Part shown: in pieces, positions 11,875-16,477 of the stretch | Position numbering within the stretch: the stretch's first letter is position 1 | Layout: each line of letters begins with the position of its first letter | Source of the DNA: a virus | Reading direction: 5' to 3' (one strand) | Length of the DNA stretch: 25,673 bases | Virus record (IMG/VR): IMGVR_UViG_3300037961_001042 | Location: 1-25,673 of that record | Translations under genes and position numbers: made by a program | The notes under the pieces: generated by a model | The model's input: the letters and a program-made list of their open reading frames with translations, nothing else | What the model was told of the DNA's origin: nothing | Database searches by the model: none

Positions 11875-12417
11875 ATGGCCAAAAGAGTAACAGATTTAAC
11901 AGCAATTGAGGAACAATTAGGTTCAGGCGATTTATTTATGGTGGTCGATGTAAACGACACGAGTTCTGGAGCAGACGGAACTAGCAAAAAGTTTGATGCA
12001 AAATACTTAATACAAACAGACAAAATATCTGTATCAAACGCAGAGTTACACGCTATGAAAGCTACAGGCGGAGCAGGCACGTTTAAAACATTAGTAGGGG
12101 CTTTAAGCGGTTATATGATAACAGTGTACAATGTAACGGTATTAACTACTTATGCAGCTTCAACAGAATCCTCTAGTGAAAATTTATATTTTGGCTATAA
12201 GTCTGATGATACATCTGCTTATTGGAATACTGCTAGAGATTTTATGAATGGAAGCACAAAAAGTATTACTGCTTGTTTTACAGGAGCATTTGTACCAAAT
12301 GGAACTTGTACAGAAACAATTTTAAATAAACCTTTTTTAATGTATTCAAGTGATAATTTTGATGGGGGTTGGACTTGTGATGTTTATGTAACTTATGCTT
12401 ATACTAAAGTGCTATGA
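11875..12417 (+). CDS. Short fibre-like or virion surface protein
   Basis: A 180-residue protein. The N-terminus AKRVTDLTAIEEQLGSGDLF, then MVVDVNDTSSGADGTSKKF, is the pattern found at the start of many phage tail fibres and virion appendages (a DL-V-D-x-x-D module followed by G-T-x-K). The C-terminal 110 residues are rich in Tyr, Thr, Ser and Gly with strand-like segments (FGYKSDDTSAYWNTARDF, CTETILNKPFLMYSSDNF, WTCDVYVTYAYTKVL) and four Cys, as in a small surface-exposed head domain. It may bind the host or decorate the virion. Its stop overlaps the start of the secreted beta-barrel gene in an ATGA junction. The 87 bp before it hold no other gene. Confidence 0.5.
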   Translation: MAKRVTDLTAIEEQLGSGDLFMVVDVNDTSSGADGTSKKFDAKYLIQTDKISVSNAELHAMKATGGAGTFKTLVGALSGYMITVYNVTVLTTYAASTESSSENLYFGYKSDDTSAYWNTARDFMNGSTKSITACFTGAFVPNGTCTETILNKPFLMYSSDNFDGGWTCDVYVTYAYTKVL

Positions 12418-13433
12418 TAAAATACTTATTATTATTAATACCGTTTTTGTCTTTTGGGCAAATAGATTTCTTCAAGTATTCTACTATTTATACATCTATG
12501 AATATGAATACAAGTATGGTAGAAAGACAAGACTATATTTCTGTTGACAAAGGCTACGAAGATGTCACAAAGATTAATGAATATGATTTCAATTTAAGTT
12601 TTGGAATCCGTAAAATTGCTCGCTATGCGTATGAACAGAAAAAACGAACTTGGTTCACAGGTACAGAATACAATGTTTCAGAAAATGTTACTATTTCCAA
12701 TGCTGTTGGTTTTGAGTATCTTGCTAATTATTCGTATATACGCAGTCGTGGCGACACACTTATTGAGCAAAATTACTGGCTTAGATACTTGGGAAAAAGA
12801 TTTGTAATTAAAGCACAATACACTGACAAACAAAAAGTTGATCTTAGATACAACTCTTTAGATGCTAGATTAAGACTAACAAAAGGAGGTTTTGACGTTA
12901 CACTCGGAGGACTATATAGAGTTCATGATGCTTATGGCTATACACCGATAGATGACTTTTGGATTGCAGGAGAACAGTCTTTTCCACAACTAGCAGAGGA
13001 GTTTGGATATAGTAGCGAGTTTGTCAATGGTCAATGGAACTGGTTTAAAAACAACGAATTACTTGCAACATCAAATGACGAGTTCTACAAACACTATTTT
13101 GGCGAAGCCATAGCAGACTTTAACACAAGAGAACTTGAGGCTTTAGGTATGCAAAGAGAGCTTAGCTTAGTGCTTGGTTTATCATACTATAAATATACTC
13201 CAAACTACTGGGTTCACGTTTGGGCGAATCTAATGCCTTTACACTATGGTTTGGACGAATACTCTTACGAGTATGGAGAAAGTGCCTTAGAACGCTTAGA
13301 ATGGGATTCTGGAGCTGTTTTAGGCGCTAAAGTTACAAAGCACTTAGGATTGTTTGTGGAGGGTACACATTTAAAATACTGGGACAAGCCTGTCTACGAG
13401 TGTAAGTTTGGGTTTAATTATTTAATATTTTAA
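12414..13433 (+). CDS. Secreted outer-membrane beta-barrel-like protein
   Basis: A 339-residue protein with a clear Sec signal peptide (MIKYLLLLIPFLSFGQ) whose SFGQ end is typical of Bacteroidota. The mature part consists of alternating polar/hydrophobic strands rich in Tyr, Trp and Phe: NEYDFNLSFGIRKIARY, RTWFTGTEYNVSENVTISN, VGFEYLANYSYIRSRG, WLRYLGKRFVIKAQY, DARLRLTKGGFDVTLGGLYR, ELSLVLGLSYYKYTP, LGLFVEGTHLKYWD, and a C-terminal strand ending in the aromatic FNYLIF. This is the signature of an outer-membrane beta-barrel. I cannot assign a known phage function. Options are receptor masking or superinfection exclusion, outer-membrane opening at lysis, or a virion component exported by mistake of annotation. 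Strand count cannot be fixed by eye. Confidence 0.65.
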   Translation: MIKYLLLLIPFLSFGQIDFFKYSTIYTSMNMNTSMVERQDYISVDKGYEDVTKINEYDFNLSFGIRKIARYAYEQKKRTWFTGTEYNVSENVTISNAVGFEYLANYSYIRSRGDTLIEQNYWLRYLGKRFVIKAQYTDKQKVDLRYNSLDARLRLTKGGFDVTLGGLYRVHDAYGYTPIDDFWIAGEQSFPQLAEEFGYSSEFVNGQWNWFKNNELLATSNDEFYKHYFGEAIADFNTRELEALGMQRELSLVLGLSYYKYTPNYWVHVWANLMPLHYGLDEYSYEYGESALERLEWDSGAVLGAKVTKHLGLFVEGTHLKYWDKPVYECKFGFNYLIF

Positions 13434-13435
13434 TT

Positions 13436-13996
13436 ATGAAAAAATTATTGTTGTTATTATTTATTAGTTCTTTTTCTTTTGCACAAGACTATGACTTTGA
13501 AGCACTGTGTATAGCTTGCGCAGAGGCTAATGGTTTCTATTGTGGCGATGACGTTAGCAACTGGACGCAATACTCTCCAGACGGCTGTGTTCAGACATCT
13601 TGGATAAACGACGGCTGGGTAGACTGTGTCGATTCTAGCGACGAGGGAGAAGACGTTGTTCCTACAACACTAGCTGAGTGCGCTCCACCAGCTCCAGAAT
13701 GTGACACAATATATGTAGAAGTTCCAGTAATACAAACAGACACAATAATACAAACAGATACTATTGTTGAAACAATAATAGAAACAGAATATCTAACAGA
13801 CACTATTGTAGAGTTTCAAGAAATCATTATAACAGACTATATTGATTGCACAACTGGACTACCTTGCAATAGTGGTATGCAAGAAGTGTTAGACAAGTCA
13901 AAAAATACAGGCTTACTTTATGATCTTAATGGTAGAACTATAAAAAGAGCCGAAGGAATTTACATAGAAAATGGTTTAATTAAATATAAATTATAA
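13436..13996 (+). CDS. Secreted Cys-rich protein, LDL-A-like motif and T9SS-like tail
   Basis: A 186-residue protein with a Sec signal peptide (MKKLLLLLFISSFSFAQ, FAQ cleavage). The mature part carries nine Cys. Residues 51-71 (CVQTSWINDGWVDCVDSSDE) closely follow the calcium-binding end of LDL-receptor class A modules (C-I-x-x-x-W-x-x-D-G-x-x-D-C-x-D-x-S-D-E), although other module Cys positions are not standard. A Thr/Asp/Ile-rich spacer (about 90-135) has imperfect TDTI repeats. The C-terminus (160-186: LLYDLNGRTIK, then GIYIENGLIKYKL) has the Y-D-x-x-G-R...G-I-Y-I-x-N-G pattern of Bacteroidota sorting tails used by the type IX secretion system, though shorter than the usual 70-80 residue domain. 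It may be displayed on the host surface. Function is unknown. Confidence 0.65.
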   Translation: MKKLLLLLFISSFSFAQDYDFEALCIACAEANGFYCGDDVSNWTQYSPDGCVQTSWINDGWVDCVDSSDEGEDVVPTTLAECAPPAPECDTIYVEVPVIQTDTIIQTDTIVETIIETEYLTDTIVEFQEIIITDYIDCTTGLPCNSGMQEVLDKSKNTGLLYDLNGRTIKRAEGIYIENGLIKYKL

Positions 13997-14232
13997 TGGA
14001 TATATTCAAAGATAACAACGATTGGAACGAAAAGTCTATAATAGGTTTTATAGCTTTCTTAATAATGTGTTTAATAATGATAGCAGATTTACTTACTGGC
14101 TGGATAGGCAAAGACCTCGTCATAAATGAGTTCATATACGATTCTTTCACATGGATTGTGTTAGGGTGTTTTGGACTTAGTGCGACAGAAAAATTCTCTG
14201 GTAAAAAATGTGATAAAAGTTGCAACAAATGA
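13996..14232 (+). CDS. Small two-TM membrane protein, holin-like
   Basis: A 78-residue protein with two hydrophobic segments: IIGFIAFLIMCLIMIADLLTG (about 15-35) and, after a short polar loop, FIYDSFTWIVLGCFGLSA (about 46-63). A Lys/Cys-rich tail follows (KKCDKSCNK). The size, topology and position two genes before an endolysin fit a holin or antiholin, but the 3TM-type holin of this phage is more clearly the gene at 15330, so this may be a second pore protein or an antiholin. Its start overlaps the previous stop by one base and its stop overlaps the next start (ATGA). Confidence 0.55.
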   Translation: MDIFKDNNDWNEKSIIGFIAFLIMCLIMIADLLTGWIGKDLVINEFIYDSFTWIVLGCFGLSATEKFSGKKCDKSCNK

Positions 14233-14501
14233 AAGAACTATCTGAAGACTCAAAGTTTCAAATTAGCCTTAAAACACTAGGCGGAATTGTGGTTTTAATT
14301 GTTACCCTCGTAGGTATGTGGTTTACGCTACAAGCTGACATAGAAGAAGCTAAGATGCTACCAGAAATGCCTATTAGTGAAAAAGAGTTCGAGCTAAAAG
14401 ATAAATTAATTAGAGGCTCTATTTTAAGCACTCAAGAAGACGTAAAAGAAATTAAAGAAGACATGAAGTATTTGAGAGACAAGATAGACAAAATGGACTA
14501 A
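14229..14501 (+). CDS. Single-TM coiled-coil protein, possible inner-membrane spanin
   Basis: A 90-residue protein. I chose the ATG at 14229, which overlaps the upstream TGA as ATGA. A TTG nine bases earlier would add three residues and looks less likely. After a short polar start comes one transmembrane segment (LKTLGGIVVLIVTLVGMWF, about 15-33) and then a charged helix with coiled-coil character (KLIRGSILSTQEDVKEIKED, YLRDKIDKMD). An N-terminal anchor followed by a periplasmic coiled coil is the topology of an i-spanin such as Rz, which a phage of a Gram-negative host needs to fuse the outer membrane. No obvious o-spanin partner is seen, so this stays a suggestion. Confidence 0.5.
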   Translation: MKELSEDSKFQISLKTLGGIVVLIVTLVGMWFTLQADIEEAKMLPEMPISEKEFELKDKLIRGSILSTQEDVKEIKEDMKYLRDKIDKMD

Positions 14502-14836
14502 TGACTAATTTACCTTACATATTAATAGGCTTATTCTTTTTTTGCATAGGCTCTTGTTTTGCACAAGTTAAAGTTGTTCACTACAATAGTGAATGGAACT
14601 CTGAAAATAATTACAATATTACATCTTTAAAAGATTGCGAAAAAGCTGACGTTGTAATATGTCACAATCCAGAGGAGCAAGAAAAATACGACATACTTGC
14701 TGTTCCTACAATTATAGTTTTTGACAATAGTATAGAGGTTGCTAGGTATGAAGCAAATATAATGATGCAATTAGATTTGTCAATTAGTGATTTGCAAAAG
14801 GCTATTGATAAAATTTATTTAACAAAATTTGAATGA
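14501..14836 (+). CDS. Secreted thioredoxin-fold protein without CXXC
   Basis: A 111-residue protein with a signal peptide (LPYILIGLFFFCIGSCFAQ). Cleavage after FAQ is likely, but IGSC could also be a lipobox, which would make it a lipoprotein. The mature part reads like a thioredoxin fold: VKVVHYNSEWN as the first strand and turn, KADVVICHNPEEQEKY, and the cis-proline strand ILAVPTIIVFDNSIEVARYE at about 65-84. The place of the active-site CXXC holds SEWNSENN instead, so the redox centre is missing. It sits between membrane proteins and the endolysin, joined by 1-bp and ATGA overlaps. Periplasmic binding, protection or a structural role is possible; oxidoreductase activity is unlikely. Confidence 0.6.
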   Translation: MTNLPYILIGLFFFCIGSCFAQVKVVHYNSEWNSENNYNITSLKDCEKADVVICHNPEEQEKYDILAVPTIIVFDNSIEVARYEANIMMQLDLSISDLQKAIDKIYLTKFE

Positions 14837-15330
14837 AGTTAACTAAAAATTTCACATTGCAAGAAATGATTTTTAGTGCTACGGCACAAAGATTATGTAT
14901 TGATAATTCAGCAACAAAAGAAGGAATCATAAAGTTGAGACTCCTGTGCGTTAATCTGTTACAGCCATTGAGGAATCACATAGGCTCTATCAGAGTAACC
15001 TCAGCGTACAGGTGTCCAGCTTTGTCAGAGGCTATCGGATCAAGTGCGTCCAGCCAGCATTGTCGCTATGAAGCGGTGGACATTCAACACGTTAGCAGAG
15101 GCAAAATGGACAACCTTAAAATCTATAAAGCACTGATAGACTTAGACTTAGACTATGACCAGTGCATCTTAGAATTTGGGGACTCGTCCGCTTTGAGTGA
15201 TCCTATGTTTCCAAGTTGGCTACACTTGAGCTGGAAAGTATCAGACAATAGACGAGAGACTTTAGTTGCCTATAAAGATATGGACAATAAAACAAAGTAC
15301 AGACCTTTAATTAAATACAATTCTTTATAA
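14833..15330 (+). CDS. Endolysin, M15-type D-Ala-D-Ala/peptidoglycan peptidase
   Basis: A 165-residue zinc peptidase of the M15 family (Peptidase_M15_3 type), which cuts peptide cross-links of peptidoglycan and acts as endolysin. The N-terminus (MKLTKNFTLQEMIFSATAQR) and LRNHIGSIRVTSAYRCPAL are characteristic. The zinc ligands are visible as His76 in SSQHCRYEAVD, Asp83 in the same motif, and His131 in SWLHLSW, with Glu114 in ILEFG as the likely catalytic base. It has no signal peptide, so it depends on a holin, and the 3TM holin gene follows with a 1-bp overlap. It also shares an ATGA junction with the gene before it. Confidence 0.88.
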   Translation: MKLTKNFTLQEMIFSATAQRLCIDNSATKEGIIKLRLLCVNLLQPLRNHIGSIRVTSAYRCPALSEAIGSSASSQHCRYEAVDIQHVSRGKMDNLKIYKALIDLDLDYDQCILEFGDSSALSDPMFPSWLHLSWKVSDNRRETLVAYKDMDNKTKYRPLIKYNSL

Positions 15331-15704
15331 TGCTAGGAGGGATTTTTAAATCATTAATCGGAAATGCTTCAGAAATTATAGACGAAGTAGTGACAACCAA
15401 AGAGGAGAAGCTAGCCTTAAAAAATAAGATGCGTGAAATTTTAGCTAACGCTGAGTCTAACGCACAACAACAAGTCACTAGGCGTTGGGAAGCTGACGCT
15501 AAGGCTGGTTGGCTACCAGCAAATATCAGACCACTAACATTAATTTTTTTGACCTTCGTGTTTGTGGTTATATCAGTGTTTGACGGAAACATTGGCGAGT
15601 TTAAAATCTCGTCAGCATATATTCCAATTTACCAGACGCTTTTATTGTGTTGCTATTCAGCTTATTTTGCTGGAAGGTCTATTGAGAAAATCAAAAGAAA
15701 ATAA
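15330..15704 (+). CDS. Holin, 3TM gene-transfer-release type
   Basis: A 124-residue protein of the 3TM holin family (PF11351 type). The amphipathic N-terminus (MLGGIFKSLIGNASEIIDEV) and a charged helix (EEKLALKNKMREILANAESN) lead to the family signature RRWEADAKAGWLPANIRPLT (residues 51-70), followed by membrane segments at about 70-84 (LIFLTFVFVVISVF) and 98-115 (IPIYQTLLLCCYSAYFAG). It forms the membrane lesion that releases the endolysin encoded just upstream. The stop codon overlaps the ATA where the following phosphoesterase frame appears to begin. Confidence 0.82.
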   Translation: MLGGIFKSLIGNASEIIDEVVTTKEEKLALKNKMREILANAESNAQQQVTRRWEADAKAGWLPANIRPLTLIFLTFVFVVISVFDGNIGEFKISSAYIPIYQTLLLCCYSAYFAGRSIEKIKRK

Positions 15705-16477
15705 AAGATAAAAGAACATATCGTCTAAGGCTAACCAAGTCAGAACACGACAAGGTCAAAGAGTCAAGACAAAAAGAAAATGAGATAATATTAATTATCT
15801 CTGACCTCCATATTCCATACCATCACCAAGACTCAATTCGCTTTCTTAGAGCTATAAAAGAATACTACAAGCCTACGTTAGTTTGGAATGTAGGAGACGA
15901 AGCTGACTTTCACGGACTGTCATATCATGAAAAAGAACAAGAGCTAGACACACAACACAACGAAACTCTCAAAGCTCGCAAAGTTTTTAAAGAGCTAGAG
16001 GAGCTATTTCCAGAAATGACTCTAGTACATTCAAATCACGGCTCAATGCTTTACAGGCGCTCTAAGACGCACGGAATACCAAACTATATGCTGAAAGACT
16101 ATAACGAAGTTATTGGCGTAGGCACAGGCTGGAAATGGTATGCAGACTATAAGCACACAATGAACAACGGACAGACAGTATTTATGACACATGGAATGAA
16201 AAAGAACGGCTTAGCTTTAGCCAAAGAAATGGGAATGTGCGTAATTCAAGGACACTATCACACAGAGTTTAACATAGGCTATACAAGCAATCCTATGGCT
16301 TTGAACTGGTCAATGATGGTAGGCTGTTTAATAGACGATAATTCCAGAGCCTATGCGTACAATAAGGTCAATAGTGCTAGAGTGATCTTAGGCTGTGGAA
16401 TAATAATAAACGGACAACCTAAGCTATTGCCTATGGTACTAGAAAAGGGAGGACGTTGGAATGGTAAGATTAATTAA
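15701..16477 (+). CDS. Calcineurin-like metallophosphoesterase, non-canonical start
   Basis: A metallophosphoesterase of about 258 residues. Motifs in order: IISDLHIPY (D-x-H), WNVGDEADFHG (G-D-x-x-D), VHSNHGSM (N-H), FMTHG and IQGHYHTEF (G-H-x-H), all the metal ligands of an active calcineurin-like fold. The first in-frame ATG is at 16016, which would remove the first two motifs and leave an inactive piece, so the gene must start earlier. In this frame an upstream stop lies at 15683 and there is no ATG, GTG or TTG before 16016. The frame begins best at the ATA at 15701, which overlaps the holin TAA exactly where an ATGA junction would sit. Phage versions act on nucleic acids or signalling nucleotides; the substrate here is unknown. 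Confidence 0.8.
   Translation: MKDKRTYRLRLTKSEHDKVKESRQKENEIILIISDLHIPYHHQDSIRFLRAIKEYYKPTLVWNVGDEADFHGLSYHEKEQELDTQHNETLKARKVFKELEELFPEMTLVHSNHGSMLYRRSKTHGIPNYMLKDYNEVIGVGTGWKWYADYKHTMNNGQTVFMTHGMKKNGLALAKEMGMCVIQGHYHTEFNIGYTSNPMALNWSMMVGCLIDDNSRAYAYNKVNSARVILGCGIIINGQPKLLPMVLEKGGRWNGKIN

Follow-up and report, generated by a model that had tools for sequence, protein, structure and literature searches.

A predicted secreted three-part protein between a barrel gene and the lysis genes

The stretch of DNA analysed here (hereafter the window, 25,673 nucleotides) comprises bases 1-25673 of a 26,400-base IMG/VR virus record, and its terminase and portal genes, an MCP-like protein and then lysis genes give it the gene content of a tailed phage. 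The host is likely a member of the Bacteroidota, probably of the marine Flavobacteriia, because the terminase is ~40% identical to those of Phocaeicola phages and the portal ~30% identical to those of Nonlabens phages P12024S/L. On the plus strand, an ORF with an ATG start (13436..13996) encodes a predicted secreted protein of 186 aa, which consists of an LDL-A-like head, a DT-rich stalk and a short C-terminal tail resembling type IX secretion system (T9SS) sorting signals. The protein begins with a Sec/SPI signal peptide (residues 1-16, 13436..13483; MKKLLLLLFISSFSFA, followed by Q) and contains exactly nine cysteines, at residues 25, 28, 36, 51, 64, 82, 89, 138 and 144. The head (residues 25-82, 13508..13681) was modelled by AF2 with a pLDDT of ~73-88 and carries the segment WINDGWVDCVDSSDE at residues 56-70. 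It is followed by the DT[IV]-rich stalk (13700..13843), which varies in length in the alignment and is modelled by AF2 at low confidence, and by a segment supported by both alignment and AF2 (13847..13909), in which a DCxTGxPC pair (C138 and C144) and a short helix (residues 148-158) precede the tail. The tail itself occupies the last 27 residues (LLYDLNGRTIKRAEGIYIENGLIKYKL; 13913..13993) and includes YDLNGRTIK...GIYIENG. A sequence-only reading of this locus had listed the signal peptide, the nine cysteines, a W-I-N-D-G-W-V-D-C-V-D-x-S-D-E segment, a TDTI-rich spacer and this C-terminus, and each of these descriptions proved accurate. Foldseek searches with the AF2 model of the whole protein returned meaningless matches, the stalk being at low confidence.

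Relatives were sought in IMG/VR viral contigs with six search peptides, and since only one of the six was taken from the tail, the search itself did not impose tail conservation. Relatives are encoded by 105 IMG/VR stretches, which argues that the architecture is more than a product of chance. The best 80 of 105 were kept, under a ranking by E-value that favours full-length proteins, and the signal peptide, the Cys-rich head and the C-terminal tail are present in 80/80 of them. The pairing of head and tail thus recurs in other phages, where the sequence-only reading had proposed to look for it, and none of the 80 relatives has the signal peptide and lacks the C-terminal motif. A search of PHROGs and of 50,697 deposited phage records found no relatives of this protein or of the barrel protein described below. 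The homologues measure 160-299 aa, the stalk being the variable part.

In an alignment of 60 family sequences (A1), the invariant positions comprise Q17, six head cysteines, D59, W61, D63, D69 and E70, together with D137, C138, G141 and C144 in the segment before the tail and Y162, G166, I177 and G180 in the tail. Cleavage of the signal peptide before Q is consistent with the sequences of 81/81 members (the window protein and 80 homologues), as predicted by the Bacteroidetes 'Q-rule' (PMC5837995), and this pattern shows Q17 to be the predicted mature N-terminus after SPI cleavage. Purifying selection on both head and tail is indicated by dN/dS values of 0.12 and 0.14, respectively (Nei-Gojobori, 230 pairs; synonymous sites near saturation).

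Relationships of the head and the tail

The head had been read as an LDL-A module, a claim that stands in the form of a divergent relative. The window protein scores 15.1 bits against PF00057, below the cut-off of 24.1; matches are weak and sub-threshold in 45/60 homologues, and the family profile reaches the edge of significance against VLDL receptor modules. Chromosomal homologues of the head module pass PF00057, at 26.7, 29.3 and 47.6 bits. One of these (L083) is a 1138-aa protein from a Crocinitomicaceae MAG, with ordinary chromosomal genes on either side, which contains two copies of the head module (PF00057 26.7 bits) and a C-terminal T9SS CTD (TIGR04183 35.5 bits). Another chromosomal homologue (L084) combines the head module with a CTD-like end, and a protein from Neomarinimicrobiota (L085) has this motif complete with Cys4 and, next to it, ordinary LDL-A repeats; a 51-aa piece of L085 with the motif scores 29.3 bits against PF00057 by itself. 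Because L083 and L085 bridge to accepted LDL-A modules, the head is classified here, by sequence, as a divergent LDL-A relative. It shares with LDL receptor class A (PF00057) the acidic cluster NDGWxDCxDxSDE and cysteines at five of the six positions, and differs in the replacement of Cys4 by Asn (N58), in an extra cysteine upstream (C25), in a longer C2-C3 loop and in a score below the Pfam cut-off. Four acidic residues of LDL-A modules bind calcium, and the corresponding positions in the head (D59, D63, D69 and E70) are invariant in 60/60 sequences; the head may therefore bind calcium as well.

The C-terminus had been interpreted as a T9SS-type tail shorter than classical sorting domains. 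Its shortness is evident, since the family consensus, YDLNGRxI..xGIYIENGxIKYKL, spans 27 aa, compared with the roughly 70-aa, seven-stranded beta-sandwich by which type-A domains are defined. The T9SS assignment held in part: neither TIGR04183 nor PF18962 matched the window protein or any of the 60 members (0/60), and it is profile-profile comparison, a tail swap on bacterial proteins and a shared barrel partner that speak for it. As for the two profiles by which the sequence-only reading had proposed to judge the protein, TIGR04183 thus gave no match and LDL-A a sub-threshold one. Type-A CTDs for comparison were drawn from two Flavobacteriales MAGs (54 and 27 matches), and 29 of them were aligned. 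The phage tail profile scored 23.3 against these 29 CTDs in hhalign (P=2e-5), the maximum of 40 column shuffles being 13.4, and the YDxxGxxI and GxYI landmarks were aligned across a 15-residue gap. The two landmarks coincide with motif Lb3b4 and the C-terminal motif, both required for the T9SS to function (PMC11285876); in the case of HBP35, the final 22 residues of its CTD are enough to export GFP (PMC10202324). AF2 predicts a terminal hairpin in the tail (strands 174-178 and 181-185). Homology thus shows the tail to be a predicted shortened relative of the type-A T9SS signal, which keeps the YDxxGR loop (Lb3b4) and the GxYI...K end; unlike type-A CTDs, it has no PNP beta1-beta2 region and 15 residues fewer between the landmarks.

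A search for the tail in 199 Flavobacteriales genomes gave one strong chromosomal match (L116). Homologues of the L116 cargo occur in 32/199 of these genomes and constitute a secreted family with three kinds of end: a canonical CTD with YPNP/YPSP...GxY (e.g. L347-L349, L352-L354), a short VDxLGRE...LFYIYxDGTxEKK end (L341, L342, L357, L359, L365), referred to below as DLLGR-type, and a short YDLxGREL...YIQNxKK end (L340, L343-L346). Tails of the last kind give a full-length alignment to the phage tail in hhalign (prob 95%, P=1.9e-8). As the three ends interchange on one cargo family, their exchange is evidence that they do the same job. The window-type and DLLGR-type tails are linked only via this swapping on shared cargo, because their direct comparison by hhalign gave a score of 12.7, inside the shuffle range, and so no support. 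On chromosomes the window-type tail is rare, being found in 12/199 Flavobacteriales genomes (E<=0.01) and, among 396 Bacteroidota, essentially only in G037; the A5 tail occurs in 2/248 Bacteroidota genomes, both of which have SprA, a number too small to bear on co-occurrence. The DLLGR-type tail is present on chromosomal ORFs of 108/199 Flavobacteriales genomes (e.g. L310-L339). It is a candidate uncatalogued T9SS-type signal, and with its DLLGR...YIYDDG pattern it would add many unannotated candidate T9SS substrates. Many of the chromosomal ORFs with this tail also have a signal peptide.

The proposed outer-membrane barrel partner

Directly upstream of the cargo gene, and on the same strand, lies a gene (12414..13433) for a predicted phage-specific outer-membrane (OM) beta-barrel of 339 aa with a signal peptide and a C-terminal Phe. 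A barrel gene precedes the cargo gene in 81/81 loci, at a distance of <=3 bp in 63 of them, and the viral contigs that carry the pair differ widely in length and in their other genes. In the other 18 of the 81 loci (among them L018, L024, L029, L036, L043, L047, L049 and L054), 129-1053 bp of extra DNA lies between the two genes, often with ORFs starting MAFKMxG, and the pair still stays together. Between the barrel and cargo genes of L016 (5492-6004) is an ORF for an unrelated 170-aa secreted protein ending GELYIDTFGRQHIVPPKGLSIKDGQKYFRL.

The AF2 model of the barrel has ~12 strands and a pTM of 0.70, with residues 69-96 unreliable, and OM barrels make up most of its top PDB matches in Foldseek, but no match has an E below 1e-3 and TM is ~0.3; these models support placement in the general OM-barrel class only. 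Two narrower assignments were rejected. An identification as PorP/SprF found no TIGR03519, NCBIfam or Pfam match, and hhalign with 20 PorP proteins aligned the signal-peptide region only. An OMPLA-like phospholipase was considered in view of the high Foldseek rank of 1qd6, but the residues around the conserved His (RxHxxYG) do not show the H-x-S spacing of the OMPLA active site. No barrel homologues were detected on the chromosomes of the 199 Flavobacteriales, in a search run without a positive control. A mirror-tree comparison of barrel and cargo gave r=0.61, a correlation that does not rise above those of other gene pairs and is therefore not discriminating.

A search with a divergent barrel as query recovered 93 relatives, of which the best 80 of 93 were fetched. 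In 64/80 of these distant loci, a same-strand ORF with a T9SS-like tail was present, many such ORFs abutting the barrel start; 28 canonical CTDs, 35 DLLGR-type and 7 window-type tails were counted, six loci having two kinds. About half of the 16/80 loci without such an ORF were limited by contig ends, and the rest were searched within a 5 kb flank. All of the canonical-CTD neighbours that were scanned (7/7) pass TIGR04183, at 35.9-46.7 bits. Because 64/80 distant loci have a neighbour with a T9SS-like tail, the barrel appears as a recurrent companion of phage proteins that are putatively addressed to the T9SS, the window gene being one version of such a protein. Large secreted phage proteins (~620-1340 aa) with DLLGR-type tails or canonical T9SS CTDs are seen beside the barrels of L230-L309 (e.g. 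L261:7721-10417, L255:1481-4159 and L230:2020-5001).

A precedent for such pairing exists in type-B CTD cargo, which goes with a PorP/SprF-like OM barrel (PMC12618676, PMC9143113). The phage system resembles it in the genetic pairing of a secreted cargo with an OM barrel. It differs in that the cargo has no TIGR04131 match and the barrel no TIGR03519 match, and in that the barrel gene precedes that of the window-type cargo. The AF2 model, in which residues 69-96 are unreliable, gives the barrel ~12 predicted strands, compared with the 14 of the FadL-type PorP/SprF.

Candidate routes to the cell surface and alternatives

With slightly better than even confidence, we propose that the gene encodes phage cargo for the host T9SS and that the barrel is its dedicated OM partner, the two being placed beside the lysis genes. 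This proposal draws on the signal peptide and tail in 80/80 relatives, the homology of the tail, the tail swap, the occurrence of the head on CTD proteins and the barrel linkage; on the other side stand the 0/60 matches to TIGR04183/PF18962, a tail of 27 aa, its rarity on chromosomes, variants with a lipobox (see below), a barrel that is not PorP/SprF by profile and a mirror-tree that does not discriminate. Sec would export the stalk protein, with SPI cutting before Q17, and the host T9SS (SprA/Sov) would take it through the outer membrane via the 27-residue tail, so that the LDL-A-like head would be displayed at the cell surface, raised by the DT-rich stalk. The barrel could act as a shuttle, dock or anchor, as PorP/SprF does for type-B cargo; its role as a dedicated partner is proposed because of strict gene linkage, not homology. 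Expression would presumably fall late in infection. The sequence-only reading had named the blocking of further phage, help with release and altered adhesion as possible purposes. As the likeliest use, the altered surface of the infected cell might lower the adsorption of further or newly released phages, and the benefit might be protection against superinfection or against loss of progeny on debris. Such protection would fit reports that mutations conferring phage resistance in Flavobacterium, as in Flavobacterium columnare, commonly fall in T9SS and gliding genes (PMC9233685), and a phage using the same machine would, if the proposal is true, link secretion, receptor masking and lysis.

The barrel and stalk pair is present in many uncultured marine phages, and the likeness of the stalk protein's end to T9SS signals suggests that the host's export system is used to redecorate the bacterial surface. 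More tentatively, and with clear reservations, marine Bacteroidota phages might use a dedicated, phage-encoded barrel shuttle and a surface cargo with a new, short class of T9SS signal (~27-38 residues, present on many chromosomal proteins of Flavobacteriales too) to reprogram the host T9SS and remodel the surface of the infected cell before lysis. The marine phage group concerned has no deposited representatives for these genes.

Phage-encoded T9SS cargo as such has already been reported: 'Cryophage' encodes a T9SS type-A cargo (PMC7468147), and T9SS domains are found near crAss-BACON ORFs (PMC6949934). In those cases, as in the one proposed here, phage genes specify Sec-exported proteins addressed to the host T9SS. 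The earlier examples, however, come from single lineages and have canonical CTDs, the proteins being enzymes or of the PA14/BACON kind, whereas the present proteins are small and non-enzymatic, have a short tail missed by TIGR04183 and a barrel partner, and form a conserved family spread over many phages. Both the short class of tail and the partnership with a barrel appear to be new, and a literature search of open-licence PMC articles found neither of them, nor the head-stalk-short-tail family. Whether the minimal T9SS signal is the full CTD fold or just its last ~22 residues is debated. In phages a natural 27-residue signal appears to have been kept, and bacterial short tails replace full CTDs on the same cargo, so that the question becomes directly testable with one fusion protein.

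The genes downstream of the cargo gene, all on the plus strand, bear on a different reading. They encode a small, holin-like membrane protein with two predicted TM helices (13996..14232; homologues in 28 loci), a protein with one TM helix and a periplasmic coiled coil in an i-spanin-like topology (14220..14501, with the ATG at 14229 as its likely start; homologues in 70/81 loci), a secreted thioredoxin-like protein without CxxC (14501..14836; homologues in 74/81 loci, weak TIGR01068 match), an endolysin of the peptidase M15 family (14833..15330; PF08291 E=2e-11, phrog_894 endolysin 5e-30) and a holin (15330..15704; phrog_3427 holin 1.6e-21). The product of 14220-14501 is possibly the i-spanin of Bacteroidota phages; homologues of it are also found beside distant barrels.

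The stalk protein could accordingly be a periplasmic lysis protein that, with the barrel and the TM/coiled-coil protein, makes up an OM disruption device, functionally a spanin, its tail binding the barrel or another envelope layer. We regard this as unlikely. It would account for the position of the gene within the lysis cassette, near the M15 endolysin and the holin, and for the i-spanin-like neighbour that most loci keep, and a canonical spanin pair was not recognised within the window. Variants of the protein also favour it. In some that have no head (L187-L189, L195 and L201), the stalk, the tail and the barrel partner are kept, and three further head-less variants (L200:2521-3084, L173:547-1119 and L202) retain stalk and tail with a lipobox, not an SPI signal peptide, the barrel being within the fetched flank only in L200. 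Predicted lipoproteins that carry this tail are not what one would expect of T9SS substrates, and they keep the spanin-like reading in play. Like known spanins (PMC6139136), the window protein is a putative envelope protein encoded near an endolysin and a holin; unlike them, it has neither a lipobox nor a TM helix, and neither a lipobox nor a C-terminal TM helix was found in any of the 81 LDL-A members (the window protein and 80 homologues). Also at variance with a lysis function are the relationship of the tail to T9SS signals, its interchange with canonical CTDs on cargo proteins of bacteria, and the distant barrel partners, proteins of 600-1300 aa with real T9SS CTDs, which would be odd for a spanin.

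The tail might instead be a docking tag for the phage barrel, in which case the protein would either stay at the periplasmic face or cross by way of the barrel itself, bypassing the host T9SS; we consider this quite improbable. Such a tag would fit the barrel linkage in 81/81 loci, and also that in head-less variants, and the AF2 barrel of ~12 strands has its top, but weak, Foldseek match in FapF (E 1.7e-3, TM ~0.3), a 12-stranded polypeptide transporter. However, the same barrel family accompanies canonical-CTD cargo, which in known systems passes SprA/Sov, and both window-type and DLLGR-type tails occur on chromosomal Flavobacteriales proteins in genomes without a barrel match. It is hardly credible that the protein is a virion component, for instance a fibre or spike, with a hydrophobic N-terminus that does not function as a signal peptide: the gene does come directly after the structural genes, and its stalk-like repeats and length variation resemble those of fibres, but the Q-rule cleavage motif in 81/81 members, conserved cysteines in a pattern pointing to an oxidising compartment, the homology of the tail to secretion signals and the absence of any PHROG match to a structural family speak against it.

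Beyond the holin gene, a calcineurin-like phosphoesterase frame (15707-16477; ISDLHIPYHHQ) stays open further 5' than the listed ATG (16016), and its true start probably lies upstream of that codon.
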